A stretch of 64,000 nt of DNA from Anaerotignum propionicum DSM 1682 (GTDB lineage: Bacteria; Bacillota; Clostridia; Lachnospirales; Anaerotignaceae), in the NCBI RefSeq assembly GCF_001561955.1, contig NZ_CP014223.1, positions 930,001 to 994,000 of the forward strand, in the 5' to 3' direction. The first letter of the stretch is position 1. Every line of letters begins with the position of its first letter. Under the pieces are notes generated by a model. That model was not told the origin of the DNA. It saw only the letters and a program-made list of their open reading frames with translations, and made no database searches. The position numbers and the translations under genes were made by a program. This document shows, piece by piece, positions 22,791 to 45,546 of this stretch.

Positions 22791-23078
22791 AAAAGCCTTT
22801 CACCTGTTTGCAAATTCGCAAAGAGGTGAAAGGCTGACTTCCACGGTACCACTCTTATTCGCCTAAATAATTAAGGCGCACTTTTAGGATACAAGCATAT
22901 CCCTTTCCGTGTAACGGCGGAAATTCCGGGAACACCTACCGACGAAAGTCTTTTCAGTGTCCTGCTCCAAGGCGAGTTCGGCTCTTTTCGTAACACTGCC
23001 TCGCACCAACCGACAGCTCTCTGAAGATATCCAAGAATCTACTATTCCTTTTCGTTGCATTTTTATAGATACAATTTA
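22791..23078 (-). promoter_or_regulatory. T-box leader of leuACDB, Leu (CTC) specifier
   Basis: On the minus strand the leader contains AGTA, the AGAGAGC...GGTTGGTG distal stem I block, and GAACTCGCC in which CTC (22976-22974) is the specifier (Leu). It also has the T-box AGAGTGGTACCGTGGAA (22855-22839). The terminator competes with the antiterminator: GCCTTTCACCT pairs with AGGTGAAAGGC, then six T (about 22833-22791). All standard parts are present, so this is transcription antitermination by uncharged tRNA-Leu. Confidence 0.93.
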
Positions 23079-40234: not shown

Positions 40235-41089
40235 CTATGCTTCCGCCTCCAGTGCTTCCGATGCATTGTAAGAACTGCGAACGAAAGGAGCAGAGGCAAC
40301 AAAGGTGAAGCCCTTCTCTTTTGCAATTTCCCCATAATGGTCAAATTGTTGAGGCGTTATATATTCCTGAACGGGATAATGTAGTGGGCTTGGGGCCAAA
40401 TATTGACCTATAGTCAGAAACTCACAACCAACCCCTCTTAAATCCTCCATCAATTGATAAACTTCCAAATCCTTCTCACCAAGACCCAGCATAATGCCTG
40501 TTTTGGAACGAATGTGGGGTGCCAGTTCTTTGATTGATTTCAATACCTTCAAGGATCTGCCATAAATTGCTTGAGGGCGGACTTGATCATATAAAGATTG
40601 TACTGTTTCCATGTTGTGGCTGATTACTTCAGGGTTCGCATCAGTAACAAGTTTGAGTGCATCTATATTTCCTTGAAAATCGGGTATCAAAACCTCAACA
40701 GCCGTTTGAGGATTTAATGCGTGGATGGCACGAATTGTTGCACCAAAGTGAGCCGCCCCGCCATCGGGCAAATCATCTCTTGTTACAGAGGTGATAACCA
40801 CATATTTTAAACCCAATTTTGATACGGCTTGGGCGATTCTGTTTGGTTCATCAGGGTCAACTCTTTGGGGGTCCTGATTGATTACGTTACAAAAACGGCA
40901 ATTTCTAGTACAATTTACCCCCAGAATCATGAAGGTGGCTGTTTTTTTTGAAAAGCATTCCACATAATTGGGGCACATTGCCGCATCACAAATGGTATTT
41001 AAATGTAGCTCCGTGAGCATTTCCCGAACATAACCTAAATTTGAATTATCTTTAAACGTTCTTTTTAACCAATCTGGTTTTTCTCTCAT
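40235..41089 (-). CDS. lipA: Lipoyl synthase (radical SAM)
   Basis: 284 residues. Inserts two sulfurs into octanoyl groups on carrier domains. Both Fe-S motifs are present: auxiliary cluster CDAAMCPNYVEC and radical-SAM cluster CTRNCRFC. It also has DDLPDGGAAHF and GLGEKDLEV and ends with the conserved VRSSYNA, whose Ser binds the auxiliary cluster. ATG at 41089 after GGAGGACA. Adjacent to lplA on the same strand (about 130 bases apart). Confidence 0.96.
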   Translation of the reverse strand: MREKPDWLKRTFKDNSNLGYVREMLTELHLNTICDAAMCPNYVECFSKKTATFMILGVNCTRNCRFCNVINQDPQRVDPDEPNRIAQAVSKLGLKYVVITSVTRDDLPDGGAAHFGATIRAIHALNPQTAVEVLIPDFQGNIDALKLVTDANPEVISHNMETVQSLYDQVRPQAIYGRSLKVLKSIKELAPHIRSKTGIMLGLGEKDLEVYQLMEDLRGVGCEFLTIGQYLAPSPLHYPVQEYITPQQFDHYGEIAKEKGFTFVASAPFVRSSYNASEALEAEA

Positions 41090-41216
41090 GTATTTGTCCT
41101 CCAATTTAGATACTTTAGAATATACTAGAGGAATCCAATTTTGCTATACCTTTTCTGAATCCTCCGTTTGTATCACATTTCCTTATGTTTTATTATCTAA
41201 ATGAATCATTTGATCT

Positions 41217-42212
41217 TTATGAAAATAAAATAGACAAAAATTCTTCTGCGCCAATTCCTCCTAAATAAGGGAGCAAATCAATTTCATTTAATCGCGTCAT
41301 CAGCGCTTCCTTGTCAAAAGCAGTATCTGCCAAGTGTTTTTCCAACTCATCGATCGGTTTTATGGAAAGAAAATCACCACGGATGGAGCAGGAAGAAATG
41401 GTGCTGTCTTTGACTTCGTAATAAACTTCAACTTTACCCAAGGGTAAACGTTTTTCACTATGATGGGTAAAATTATGATTGGTACGGTATGTCCAAAGGG
41501 GATTTGCAAATTTTTCTTCTCTTATTTTTTCAATGGAAGCAAGCTCCTCTTGAGAAAACGAATACAATTCAAAGGGAAGAATTTCCGATAAAGCCTCTTT
41601 GAAAAGAGCTTTGAATGTTTGTGTATCATATTTTTCTGAAAGATGATTGAGGATATTGGTAACACGACTGCGAACCGAGGCAATTCCTTTGTTTTTCAAC
41701 TTGGATTCATCCACAGTTAAAATGCTCTCCAGAACGGAAAGATCCGTATCAAATAAGAGGGAGCAATGACTGCATAGGCAGTTTTTCCCTAAACGCTGCG
41801 CCAAACCGGAAATTTTTTTGCCTTCTAGGAGCATATCGTTTCTCCCTTTTATTTCTGCGTGAATCCCCATTTTTTGCAAAGCCATGATAATGGGCTCTGC
41901 CAATTGGGTACGACCAATCTCCTTAGCATCATCACCTGAGGAAAAGGGTGTTATTCTGGTGCAAAGCAGGGTGCCTTTGTCAGTATAAATGGTTCCCCCT
42001 CCGCTGGAACGTCGAACGATTTGTACGTTGTGCTGTTTTGCCAAGTCAAAATCAATTTCGTCTTGGGCAATTTGGTTACTGCCCAGCATCGCACAGCGAT
42101 CTGTTTGCCATAGCATGAAAATATCTTGGGTTTGTCCCATGGAACTCATGCAAAATTCCTCGGCTGCAAAATGGTATGCAGCGTCTGTGTCTTTTGGCTG
42201 AATAAAAATCAT
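41217..42212 (-). CDS. lplA: Lipoate-protein ligase A
   Basis: 331 residues. Activates lipoate with ATP and transfers it to carrier lysines. Shows RRSSGGGTIYTDKGTL, the KGRNDMLLEGKKISGLAQR segment and a C-terminal accessory domain. The internal CLCSHCSLLFD piece is a usual HGT/LLFD position. ATG at 42212 after GGAGGG. No lipoylated protein gene is in the window, so lipA/lplA serve carriers encoded elsewhere. Confidence 0.94.
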   Translation of the reverse strand: MIFIQPKDTDAAYHFAAEEFCMSSMGQTQDIFMLWQTDRCAMLGSNQIAQDEIDFDLAKQHNVQIVRRSSGGGTIYTDKGTLLCTRITPFSSGDDAKEIGRTQLAEPIIMALQKMGIHAEIKGRNDMLLEGKKISGLAQRLGKNCLCSHCSLLFDTDLSVLESILTVDESKLKNKGIASVRSRVTNILNHLSEKYDTQTFKALFKEALSEILPFELYSFSQEELASIEKIREEKFANPLWTYRTNHNFTHHSEKRLPLGKVEVYYEVKDSTISSCSIRGDFLSIKPIDELEKHLADTAFDKEALMTRLNEIDLLPYLGGIGAEEFLSILFS

Positions 42213-42456
42213 ATGAGCCCTCCTTATCATTTGTAAAGTTCATATCTTAGTATACTAGATATGAAGGTGGCTAGCAAGACCGGAAAATTGAAAGACCTAT
42301 TTACCGCATGACAAAGGTGGATTTTTGAAAAGGAAGAATGAAAAATAGTAAGCTGTTTTTTTGTAGGTTTGATAAAGCGCAAAGGGAAAGCACAATCATT
42401 TTTATTGAGTCTTGGGCAATTTTCCGCTATACTGAAAAGAGAAAGAGGTGAACAAT

Positions 42457-43881
42457 GTGACTGCTTTGATGAAAATTCAGACCTTTATTCAAGCCTATGC
42501 CCAAGCAATTTCATCTATTTTAGAATGTGATGTAACGGTGGTGGATAACCAATTGATACGTGTGGCGGGAACGGGGAATTATGCTTTTGAAGTGGGAAAC
42601 ACCATTGCCCATGCCAAATTTTTTCATGAGATTTTGAAAACAGGGAAATACGGAATTATTACCAATGCGGCGGAGGACCCCAGTTGTATTGGCTGTGAAA
42701 AGCGTGCATACTGTAAGGAACTGGCTGACTTAGCATATCCGATTTTCAAAGATGAGATTGTAGTAGGGGTAATTTCCATTGTTGCCTTTGAAGAAGGACA
42801 GCGGGAGAGCCTGCTGAAAAATCGAGGAAAATTAGAGGAATTCTTAAAATATATGACTATGCTTTTGGAAAGCAAGCTGTATACCGCTGAAGCAAGGGAT
42901 CGCTTAGAGCAGCAGTTACAGGTGGTTCATGATGATAAAAAGGGATGGTCTTTTGTGGGGAAAAGTCAGAAAATGCAAGAAGCCATTGCCATTGGTTGTA
43001 AGGTTGCCAAATCGGGTTCCACTGTTTTTTTGCGTGGTGAAAGCGGAACAGGCAAGGAGATTATGGCAAAGATGATTCATGGACTGAGCCAAAGACGAGA
43101 CAAACTTATGATTTCCATTAATTGTGCGGCAATTCCTGAAAACTTGGTGGAAAGTGAGCTTTTTGGTTATGAAGAGGGTGCCTTTACCGGTGCAAAGAAA
43201 AAGGGCGCAATCGGAAAATTTGAGCTGGCGGATAAAAGCACGATCTTTTTGGATGAAATTGGAGATATGCCCCTCCATGTGCAAACCAAGCTTTTGCGGG
43301 TTTTACAAGAAAATAAGCTTGAGCGCATTGGTGGACACAAACAGATTCCCATTGATATTCGGGTGATTTGTGCAACCAATAAAAACATTGAACAAATGGT
43401 GCAAGAGGGAACCTTTCGGGAGGATTTATATTACCGTTTGAATATAATCCCCATTGAGTTACCTCCTTTGCGCACCAGAAAAGAGGATATTCCTCCATTG
43501 GTGGAGCACTATATTGAGTACTATAATCTAAAGTTGAGCAAACATGTTCAAGGAGTAACAGGGGAAGTAATGCAGACTTTAGTCAACTACAATTGGCCGG
43601 GAAATGTTAGAGAATTAAAAAATATTATGGAGTATTTAGCAAACATCGTGGAATCTGAAGAAGTACAGCTTTCCGACTTGCCTGACCATATTGTATTGCG
43701 ATCTACAAAGGGCTATGATGCATGGTCTTTGGATAAGATAATGGATGAATATGAAAAACGAGTGCTCTCTAATTTGATCAAGGAGGATGACTCTGTGGAG
43801 GAAAAGGAAAAGTTGGCAGAAACATTGCAAATCAGCCGTGCCACTCTCTATCGCAAATTAAAAAAACACAATCTACTCTAA
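42457..43881 (+). CDS. Sigma-54 enhancer-binding activator with Cys-containing sensor
   Basis: About 474 residues. N-terminal sensor domain (1-150) with CIGCEKRAYC (near residue 71-80), a possible metal or redox site. AAA+ domain with Walker A GESGTGKE (194-201), the sigma-54 contact loop GAFTGA (241-246), FLDEIGDMP and FREDLYYRLN; then a Fis-type HTH (LQISRATLYRKLKKHNL). The layout resembles clostridial amino-acid-responsive regulators such as PrdR. GTG at 42457 sits 6 bases after AGAGGTGA. The next gene has a canonical sigma-54 promoter and is the obvious target. Confidence 0.93.
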   Translation: MTALMKIQTFIQAYAQAISSILECDVTVVDNQLIRVAGTGNYAFEVGNTIAHAKFFHEILKTGKYGIITNAAEDPSCIGCEKRAYCKELADLAYPIFKDEIVVGVISIVAFEEGQRESLLKNRGKLEEFLKYMTMLLESKLYTAEARDRLEQQLQVVHDDKKGWSFVGKSQKMQEAIAIGCKVAKSGSTVFLRGESGTGKEIMAKMIHGLSQRRDKLMISINCAAIPENLVESELFGYEEGAFTGAKKKGAIGKFELADKSTIFLDEIGDMPLHVQTKLLRVLQENKLERIGGHKQIPIDIRVICATNKNIEQMVQEGTFREDLYYRLNIIPIELPPLRTRKEDIPPLVEHYIEYYNLKLSKHVQGVTGEVMQTLVNYNWPGNVRELKNIMEYLANIVESEEVQLSDLPDHIVLRSTKGYDAWSLDKIMDEYEKRVLSNLIKEDDSVEEKEKLAETLQISRATLYRKLKKHNLL

Positions 43882-43914
43882 TCTCATTTATGAGAATTCA
43901 TCTCAGGAATGAGA
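43882..43914. promoter_or_regulatory. Two upstream activator palindromes (UAS1, UAS2)
   Basis: TCTCATTTATGAGA (43882-43895) and TCTCAGGAATGAGA (43901-43914): both are TCTCA-N4-TGAGA, 19 bases apart centre to centre, immediately after the activator's stop codon. A third copy lies at 44147. They are placed about 300 bases before the sigma-54 promoter, right for enhancer sites. Confidence 0.75.
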
Positions 43915-43944
43915 AAGTAAAAGCATAGGTAATTCAAATAACAA

Positions 43945-43994
43945 AGAGCCCTTTTGCAAAGCACAATCTTGTGGAATTGCAAGGGCTTTCTTTA
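43945..43994 (+). terminator. Terminator of the sigma-54 activator gene
   Basis: GAGCCCTTTTGCAA pairs with TTGCAAGGGCTTTC, closing a loop of about 20 bases; ends TTTCTTTAT. Confidence 0.75.
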
Positions 43995-44146
43995 TGTATG
44001 AAACAAAAGGATAAAAATAAATCCATTGAAATACGTTTCTATATTTAAATATGTAAGTGAGTAAAAAATATCTGATTCTTAAATAGAAATCCTTCTTTTA
44101 GTATCCGGTTGCTTTTTTAATAAAAATGAATTGGTTTTAATGACCT

Positions 44147-44160
44147 TCTCAATGTTGAGA
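44147..44160. promoter_or_regulatory. Third activator palindrome (UAS3)
   Basis: TCTCAATGTTGAGA, same TCTCA-N4-TGAGA format, about 43 bases before the -24 element. Confidence 0.7.
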
Positions 44161-44202
44161 AAAATGCTAGGGAACGGTATAGGCAAATAGGGGATTTTCC
44201 TT

Positions 44203-44218
44203 TGGCATTTATTTTGCT
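44203..44218 (+). promoter_or_regulatory. Sigma-54 (-24/-12) promoter of the cysteine desulfidase-type gene
   Basis: TGGCATTTATTTTGCT keeps the invariant GG and GC with exactly ten bases between them, matching TGGCAYRNNNNTTGCW at nearly every position. The start codon is 54 bases downstream. Confidence 0.88.
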
Positions 44219-44271
44219 CTATATATTGGTGTAACGAAGAGACAATTGTAATACTCAAGGAGGAATTAACG

Positions 44272-45546
44272 ATGGATATGAATCTAGTATTGGATAAAAT
44301 AAAGGCTGAGATGAAGCCAAGTATGGGGTGTACGGAACCAGTTGCAATTGGATTGGCGGTTTCCAGAACATGTGAGATGTTGAAAAAACCTGCAACTCAC
44401 TTAGATATGATTATTAGTTCTAATATTTTCAAAAATGCTTATAGCGTGCAAATTCCTAATGCGGGAACCAATGGGATTGAGCTTTCCTGTACCTTGGGTT
44501 TTGTTCTGAGTAAGCCGGGAAATACTATGGAGATTTTTGCTGAAATCCTTCCTGAGCAAGTTCAGCGGGCAAAAAAATTGGTGAATGATGGATTTGTTTC
44601 TGTAAAGGTTCTTCCAAGCAGTGAGTTTTATATTGAGTGTTTTGCAATCAATGATGAAGAAAGGGCACATACCATAACAGAAAAGGCTCATGACAATATG
44701 ATTCTTTCAGAAATCAATGGCGAAGTGCTTATAGATAAACGGACCCTCTCTGCATCAGAGAGCATAACCAATGGCTTTGATATAACAAAATATTCTTTTG
44801 CTGATTTTTATGAATGGGCGAATACTATTGATGTTGCGGATTTGGCTTTTATCAAAGAAGGCATTGATATGAATTTGGCAGTAGCCGAAATTGGAATGCA
44901 GAAAAAGTATGCCATCGGCGTTGGGCCTGCATTGAAGAATTTAGTAGGAAAAGGTCTGATTGCCAATGATATGCTGACAGAGATTAAGCAACTTACCGCA
45001 GCAGCCAGTGATTTTCGTATGAGTGGCGGAAATGGTTCAGTTATGACGTTTTTGGGCAGTGGTAATCAAGGAATTGAGACTATGTTACCCATGGCGATTT
45101 TTGCGAAGCATAGAAATATTCCTGAGGAGACGCTTTTAAGAGCTGAGTTTTTGGGTATGTTGGTAATTATGTATATGAAGTATCATGTTGGACGTCTATC
45201 CCCTATTTGCGGGGCTACCTTAGCGGCGTCAGGTGGTGCCGCAGGCATGACTTATATGATGGGCGGCAATTTAAATCAGATTTCCGGTGCAGTACAAAAT
45301 ATGATGGGTGGCGTTGCAGGTATGTTCTGTGATGGCGCAAAGGGCGGATGCTCCTTAAAGCTTTCCGTTTGCGCAGGTGAGGCGGTTTACTCTGCAATGC
45401 TAGCTATGGATGACAGCATTATTCAGGCAACCGATGGGTTTATAAGTGAGAAAGTGGAAGATACAGCAAAAAATTTGGCTAGACTTTCCCATGAAGGTTT
45501 AGCAGATGTTGATATGAAGGTAATTGAAATTATGATGGCAAAATAA
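44272..45546 (+). CDS. L-cysteine desulfidase / serine-dehydratase-alpha-like protein
   Basis: 424 residues of the CdsB/YhaM (UPF0597) family, Fe-S dependent enzymes that release sulfide from cysteine to give pyruvate and ammonia. Conserved cysteines are in PSMGCTEPVAIG, LSPICGA and MFCDGAKGGCSLK; SGGNGSVMTFLGSGNQG and MMGGVAGMFCDG are glycine-rich family blocks. AAGGAGG precedes the ATG. Its sigma-54 promoter and the neighbouring activator suggest induction by an amino acid, most likely cysteine. A related specificity such as serine cannot be excluded. Confidence 0.88.
   Translation: MDMNLVLDKIKAEMKPSMGCTEPVAIGLAVSRTCEMLKKPATHLDMIISSNIFKNAYSVQIPNAGTNGIELSCTLGFVLSKPGNTMEIFAEILPEQVQRAKKLVNDGFVSVKVLPSSEFYIECFAINDEERAHTITEKAHDNMILSEINGEVLIDKRTLSASESITNGFDITKYSFADFYEWANTIDVADLAFIKEGIDMNLAVAEIGMQKKYAIGVGPALKNLVGKGLIANDMLTEIKQLTAAASDFRMSGGNGSVMTFLGSGNQGIETMLPMAIFAKHRNIPEETLLRAEFLGMLVIMYMKYHVGRLSPICGATLAASGGAAGMTYMMGGNLNQISGAVQNMMGGVAGMFCDGAKGGCSLKLSVCAGEAVYSAMLAMDDSIIQATDGFISEKVEDTAKNLARLSHEGLADVDMKVIEIMMAK

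Follow-up and report, generated by a model that had tools for sequence, protein, structure and literature searches.

A probable CdsR-type sigma-54 regulon at a cysteine desulfidase locus of Anaerotignum propionicum, with a shortened activator and an additional promoter-proximal palindrome

The locus described here is best explained as the CdsR-cdsB regulon of Anaerotignum, in which transcription of a cysteine desulfidase gene (cdsB) is very probably sigma-54-dependent and induced by cysteine, a reading based on the precedent of C. difficile. We analyzed a stretch of 64,000 nt from Anaerotignum propionicum DSM 1682 (contig NZ_CP014223.1, positions 930,001 to 994,000), referred to throughout as the window. 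Within it, three copies of the palindrome TCTCA-N4-TGAGA and a -24/-12 promoter sit between the gene for a GAF-AAA+-Fis sigma-54 activator and cdsB. This kind of switch is already known, and the window holds a shortened-activator form of it with an extra site. As judged from the sequence, the new details are an activator about 110 residues shorter that appears to lack a PAS-like segment, palindromes with a 4-base spacer, and a third site whose distance from the promoter is fixed. The features are as follows.

42448 to 43881, plus strand: cdsR-type gene for a sigma-54 activator of 477 aa (Pfam Sigma54_activat, 1.4e-70)
42685 to 42714, plus strand: CxxCx5C motif CIGCEKRAYC (residues 80-89, GAF sensor)
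43882 to 43895, unstranded: distal site 1, TCTCATTTATGAGA, abutting the cdsR stop codon
43901 to 43914, unstranded: distal site 2, TCTCAGGAATGAGA, 19 bp from site 1
43945 to 43989, plus strand: hairpin with a T-rich tail, probably the cdsR terminator (fold of 43940-43995, -19.7 kcal/mol)
44147 to 44160, unstranded: proximal site 3, TCTCAATGTTGAGA, 62 bp upstream of the -12 GC
44202 to 44218, plus strand: sigma-54 promoter (-24/-12), TTGGCATTTATTTTGCT
44257 to 44263, plus strand: ribosome binding site AAGGAGG, read from the sequence
44272 to 45546, plus strand: cdsB, L-cysteine desulfidase of the CyuA/YhaM/UPF0597 family, 424 aa (PF03313, SDH_alpha, 2.4e-51)

The three palindromes reported by the initial annotation at 43882, 43901 and 44147 are all exact, and the window contains no further exact copy. 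The mean expected by chance is 0.04 (100 dinucleotide shuffles), with three copies reached in 0 of 100. Over the whole 3.12-Mb genome the exact pattern occurs 4 times, against once for the pattern read backward, and the stretch scanned around the fourth copy shows no sigma-54-like promoter. When one mismatch is allowed, 66 genomic sites are found against 39 for the backward control, so that isolated one-mismatch sites mean little. The textbook -24/-12 element described earlier is present, with its start corrected from 44203 to 44202, and the same genome encodes sigma-54. Six sequences in the genome match the strict pattern TTGGCAYNNNNNTTGCW, TTGGCATTTATTTTGCT among them (backward control: 2). 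The other 5 matches have neither TCTCA-N4-TGAGA with at most one mismatch nor an exact site with a 3-base spacer within 600 bp upstream; a broad regulon was rejected on this basis, at the level of strict sigma-54-type promoters. Simple terminator and promoter scans were uninformative at the locus, the former missing the hairpin at 43945-43989. From sequence and position, the palindromes are probable activator sites. Elsewhere in the window there are two T-box leaders on the minus strand (22819-23064 and 1409-1650; Rfam RF00230), and lipoyl synthase- and lipoate ligase-like genes, judged from their translations, lie divergently beside cdsR at 40235-42230.

Both proteins are of the types first proposed, namely a sigma-54 activator, which has a Fis-type HTH, and a UPF0597-type desulfidase, which matches solved L-cysteine desulfidases. 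CdsB matches the L-cysteine desulfidase structure 9he0 (4.8e-28), and in the alignment with this solved enzyme its residues C20, E22, C313, C353 and C360 fall at positions of the active site and the cluster. C20 and E22 correspond to Cys23 and Glu25 in the CyuA of M. maripaludis, and all three conserved cluster cysteines are kept. A second CyuA-like paralogue in the genome (G000:C1:50720, L155:3006-4256) reads GVTE instead of GCTE, with Val at the Cys position. No activator was found in the 4.7 kb fetched around this paralogue, and no palindrome within 480 bp of it; it adjoins a gene of the sodium:neurotransmitter symporter family.

The activator is laid out as a GAF domain (residues 1-163), an AAA+ domain (170-337), a lid (342-418) and a Fis-type HTH (454-474), with GAFTGA present and the PAS segment absent. 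A GAF fold is predicted for the N-terminal 163 residues (model pLDDT 90), and Foldseek matches this model to the GAF domains of CodY, NifA and Nlh2 and to free methionine-R-sulfoxide reductases; sequence matches of the domain in the PDB are weak (best 0.0018), and a search of viral contigs with the sensor found no relative. The sensor cysteines C80, C83 and C89 are invariant in 14 aligned sensors and present in all 37 aligned activators, and 22 of 24 tblastn matches show CxxCx5C. The two misses are the activator of L183, beside an aminotransferase gene, and the N-terminal piece of a split gene; the sensor alignment left out L183 (no motif), L176 (truncated where its locus ends) and L185 (a split gene). 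The same domain carries CxxCx5C in activators beside a creatininase gene (L201), beside genes for a PLP enzyme and an M20 peptidase (L055), and beside others. These cysteines therefore look structural or generic, and the motif CIGCEKRAYC, once offered as a pointer to cysteine or redox sensing, was rejected as a cysteine-specific signature.

The long activators linked to cdsB have 583-643 aa (two cut by the end of the stretch left out), with about 110 extra residues between GAF and AAA+. The AAA+ domain begins at residue 170 in the window protein, compared with 276-287 in 8 long activators. PAS-type matches fall in the extra segment in 7 of the 8 long activators scanned, mostly under the Pfam cut-off, and there are none in the window protein. 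In a tree of AAA+/HTH regions (46 rows), the short activators form one cluster and the long cdsB-linked ones fall in several places; short and long forms are not united apart from other activators. This tree left out the activators of L120, L131, L142 and L147, as well as those of L055, L056, L057, L059, L193, L201, L212 and L213, which failed the motif filter. Given this scatter, the orthology of the window protein with C. difficile CdsR is unproven, and the activator-cdsB link in short and long forms could partly be convergent.

Within the window's family the arrangement is strongly conserved. A sensor-domain search of 295 genomes of the order gave a match in 28, with 21 of these in the family (the window's own genome included) at 62-99% identity. 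The cdsB gene lies downstream in 19 of the 20 other family loci; in the remaining one (L048), which was dropped from the family loci, the contig ends before cdsB. Searching 58 family genomes with cdsB found the close type (50-100% identical) in 23; two of these are partial frames, and in one of the two cdsB is split into two pieces. The activator is upstream and the -24/-12 promoter present in all 23 loci. The initial annotation had made its proposal depend on conservation of the palindromes between orthologous loci, and the distal pair is indeed kept in 23 of 23, its sites 19-20 bp apart and neither of them departing from the palindrome at more than 2 of its 10 positions. In 20 loci the pair starts 0-11 bases past the activator stop codon; of the exceptions, two start 335 (L039) and 48 (L134) bases past the stop, and the one in L050, a broken locus, starts 12 bases ahead of it. 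Across the 23 loci the pair is located anywhere from 130 to 497 bp upstream, and its helical phasing is weak (R 0.49 at 10.5 bp, p ~0.004, relatedness not corrected). In L050 (genome G169, same genus), cdsB reads as two pieces that lie apart and the activator carries a frameshift; the sites and the promoter remain.

The third site is found 61-63 bp upstream of the -12 GC in 18 of the 23 loci, which are related and thus not independent, and at 73 bp in L134; it is absent at the proximal position in L039, L044, L051 and L133. In ungapped columns anchored on the promoter, the mean majority fraction at the proximal site is 0.57 in the arms and 0.52 in the flanks, a weak difference, and the site shifts by 1 bp among loci and is missing there in 5 of 23. 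The claim of a proximal site thus rests on site detection and not on column conservation. By eye, the interval from the third site to the promoter is taken up by a T-run hairpin in several relatives and not in others, with the spacing kept; in L040-L043, L049, L052 and L053 a terminator-like T-run hairpin ends right at the -24 element.

To look beyond the family, we turned to cdsB homologues, which occur in 86 of 391 genomes of the class. The neighborhoods of 37 homologues were fetched: 12 were picked for an activator already seen among 28 non-family loci, and the 25 others include the window genome's own paralogue and 6 that show an activator. The window cdsB is only 31-37% identical to cdsB beside long activators. 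Where an activator lies within 1.2 kb, at least two T[ACT]TCA-N3/4-TGA[AGT]A sites occur within 480 bp upstream in 13 of 16 homologues, against 0.1% of shuffles; this degenerate palindrome was formulated after part of the same loci had been seen, and 12 of the 16 were chosen for a visible activator. Among the 17 homologues whose fetched stretch shows no activator, the window genome's paralogue included, any palindrome site is seen in 2. The strict promoter TTGG[CT][AC]-N6-TTGC is present in 11 of 16 loci with an activator versus 0 of 17 without. L142 (activator 0.8 kb away and divergent) and L147 (a fragment 1.7 kb away) were left out of the former set, and L136 and L152, with too little upstream DNA, out of the latter. 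A proximal copy of the locus's own motif variant is found in 3 of the 16 long-activator loci, at -50 in L125 and L143 and at -60.5 in L153, and L128 has a weak proximal site at -41.5.

The spacing between palindrome and promoter was also examined in a single scan of 84,980 genomes for TCTCA-N4-TGAGA followed by 26-56 bases and then TTGGCAYNNNNNTTGCW, in which the window's own records may be left out. The scan used this one palindrome, without a scrambled-palindrome control, and returned 49 loci where about 4 are expected by chance (an estimate assuming equal base frequencies). A cdsB match lies just downstream in 14 of these (one, L177, at 28% identity), and the other 35 come from many phyla. 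Pfam assignments for the first downstream frame in 10 of these 35 include Fe-alcohol dehydrogenase, aminotransferase, creatininase twice, cytochrome c and others, with two frames matching no family. Scan loci in unrelated phyla (L160-L208) include Aeromonas, Clostridium Fe-alcohol dehydrogenase and creatininase genes. Spacings are 39-42 in 25 loci, 50-54 in 16, 26-30 in 6, and 36 and 48 once each. They are discrete, with steps of roughly one helical turn that come closer to 12 than to 10.5 bp: after removal of five near-duplicates (two Clostridium, three Aeromonas) from the 35 loci, the best period between 9.5 and 12.5 for the 30 remaining spacings is 12 (R 0.68, against R 0.53 at 10.5), with 3 of 20,000 random sets as good. 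Since the best period differs from the 10.5 of B-DNA, simple helical phasing describes the spacings only approximately. Effects of helical phase have been described for the enhancer loops of sigma-54 systems (PMC4740811), so the principle is not new; the new detail is the strict proximal position at cdsB. It is possible, and we put it forward tentatively, that the proximal palindrome constitutes a sigma-54 control element in its own right, with its center held at a few discrete distances (about 50, 62 or 73 bp from the -12 element) while the distal enhancer drifts, and that several unrelated activators sharing TCTCA-N4-TGAGA use the same arrangement, as the spacing clusters at 26-30, 39-42 and 50-54 bp suggest.

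The precedent for cysteine control comes from C. difficile, where cdsB is induced by cysteine from a mapped sigma-54 promoter in a manner that needs both SigL and CdsR (Gu et al. 2018, PMC5767170). The same source describes C. difficile CdsR as a protein of 591 aa with PAS, AAA+ and Fis domains, and places the region needed for induction at 153-223 bp upstream of the start, in which two inverted repeats span -179 to -190 and -200 to -211. A later study lists the cdsB promoter, calls the regulator a type 2 CdsR, and reports no SigL dependence by qRT-PCR in the conditions tested (Soutourina et al. 2020, PMC7438776). For Clostridium and Clostridioides, CdsR-cdsB regulons have been predicted that fall under two types of CdsR (CdsR1/2) with distinct motifs (Nie et al. 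2019, PMC6615313); the cdsB species named there are C. difficile, C. botulinum, C. sporogenes and C. scatologenes, and its main text names neither Anaerotignum nor propionicum. The literature searched yielded no paper on a CdsR-cdsB regulon in Anaerotignum. The earlier statement that no sigma-54 activator of this kind had been described falls: CdsR control of cdsB has been shown experimentally in C. difficile (PMC5767170), and for Clostridium and Clostridioides it is a published prediction (PMC6615313). We found the exact published cdsB promoter in 4 of 8 genomes of one genus (that of G582), here called C. difficile-like. Counted from a start site placed 28 bases downstream of the first base of the promoter, all 4 carry TCTCATTTTGAGA at -191 to -179 and TCTCAAAATGATA at -209 to -197. 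These palindromes have the form TCTCA-N3-TGAGA, with the half-sites of the window and a spacer one base shorter, and TCTCATTTTGAGA falls where Gu et al. place an inverted repeat within the region required for cysteine induction.

Several other readings of the locus can be weighed against this one, and the strongest of them, which we still consider unlikely, is that the activator senses redox state or a metal through its CxxCx5C GAF domain, with the desulfidase as one output of a redox or sulfur-stress response. The invariance of the three cysteines across 14 sensors and 37 activators would suit such a role, as would the weak sequence match and the fold match of the GAF domain to free methionine-R-sulfoxide reductases. 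The same cysteines recur, however, in related activators beside unrelated catabolic genes, and the inducer in C. difficile is added cysteine (PMC5767170). Among the 6 strict sigma-54-type promoters of the genome, moreover, that of cdsB alone has the sites, which argues against a broad stress regulon. From the original suggestion of a cysteine- or redox-responsive system we retain a sigma-54 activator/cdsB regulon, cysteine-responsive by precedent, and drop CIGCEKRAYC as its specific support. Somewhat less plausible is an enzyme acting on serine or another amino acid. This is hinted at by the name of the Pfam family (serine dehydratase alpha chain), the failure of NCBIfam to give a family, and the low identity to the solved enzyme; but C20 and E22 are retained, their counterparts are essential in M. 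maripaludis CyuA, and the Cys/Glu pair is not conserved in the SdaA/B serine dehydratases (PMC12647591). The paralogue with Val at the Cys position also speaks against it.

Two further alternatives concern the palindromes themselves. That the proximal site serves a different regulator, a repressor, which happens to share the palindrome is improbable, to a degree between the two readings above: the site is nearer the promoter than the 100-250 bp upstream at which most activator sites detected in Clostridiales lie (PMC6615313, section 6), yet its sequence is the same as that of the distal pair in the same genomes, and three long-activator loci (L125, L143, L153) likewise have a proximal copy of their own variant. 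We give very little credence to a role of the palindromes in RNA or as terminators, with the first two forming a hairpin in the 3' end of cdsR. Sites 1 and 2 can fold together (-14.3 kcal/mol) right behind the stop codon, but a separate terminator-like hairpin comes after them, the same half-sites appear again at a fixed distance upstream of the promoter, variant palindromes are also seen where the activator is divergent (L130, L131), and in C. difficile-like genomes the palindromes fall in the region required for induction.

Under the preferred CdsR-cdsB reading, the short GAF-AAA+-Fis CdsR would bind the tandem TCTCA-N4-TGAGA pair behind its own gene and, by looping, reach the sigma-54 polymerase about 300 bp away at 44202-44218. 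By analogy with C. difficile, on which dependence on sigma-54 and CdsR and induction by cysteine are modeled, an excess of cysteine or a close metabolite would lead CdsR to open the promoter, and CdsB would turn cysteine into pyruvate, ammonia and sulfide. We infer both the ligand of the GAF domain and the role of the third site, which most likely binds the same activator and may tune output, either by helping docking or by limiting it as proposed for the governors of glnAp2. Such a scheme would extend the CdsR switch to Anaerotignum and its relatives. The pattern T[CA]TCA-N3/4-TGA[GT]A can serve to define the sites of activators linked to cdsB, and the control region published for C. difficile can be tied to a specific palindrome. 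The fixed-distance proximal site offers a testable point on the tuning of sigma-54 activators with distant enhancers.

The window resembles the C. difficile CdsR-SigL-cdsB system in having the activator gene directly upstream of cdsB, a -24/-12 promoter, paired inverted repeats, GAFTGA and a Fis-type HTH. The half-sites TCTCA/TGAGA are shared with the genomes that carry the published promoter, and the L128 activator, from the same genus as the C. difficile-like genomes, has a GAF domain with CxxCx5C. Unlike C. difficile CdsR (591 aa, with PAS), the window activator has 477 aa and is without the PAS segment; the spacer is 4 bp in place of the 3 bp of C. difficile-like genomes; and the third site, 62 bp from -12 in the window, has no counterpart with at most one mismatch in those genomes (a weak one in 1 of 4). 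With the CdsR regulons predicted for Clostridium and Clostridioides (PMC6615313) the window shares the regulator-target pair, the sigma-54 promoter and the upstream activator sites, a likeness drawn at the level of organization. At E. coli glnAp2, NtrC uses two high-affinity enhancer sites together with low-affinity sites proposed as governors (PMC3870243). The window likewise combines a distal tandem pair with a site nearer the sigma-54 promoter; the operator and the signal are unrelated, and in contrast to the low-affinity sites of glnAp2, the window's proximal site matches the consensus as well as the distal sites do.
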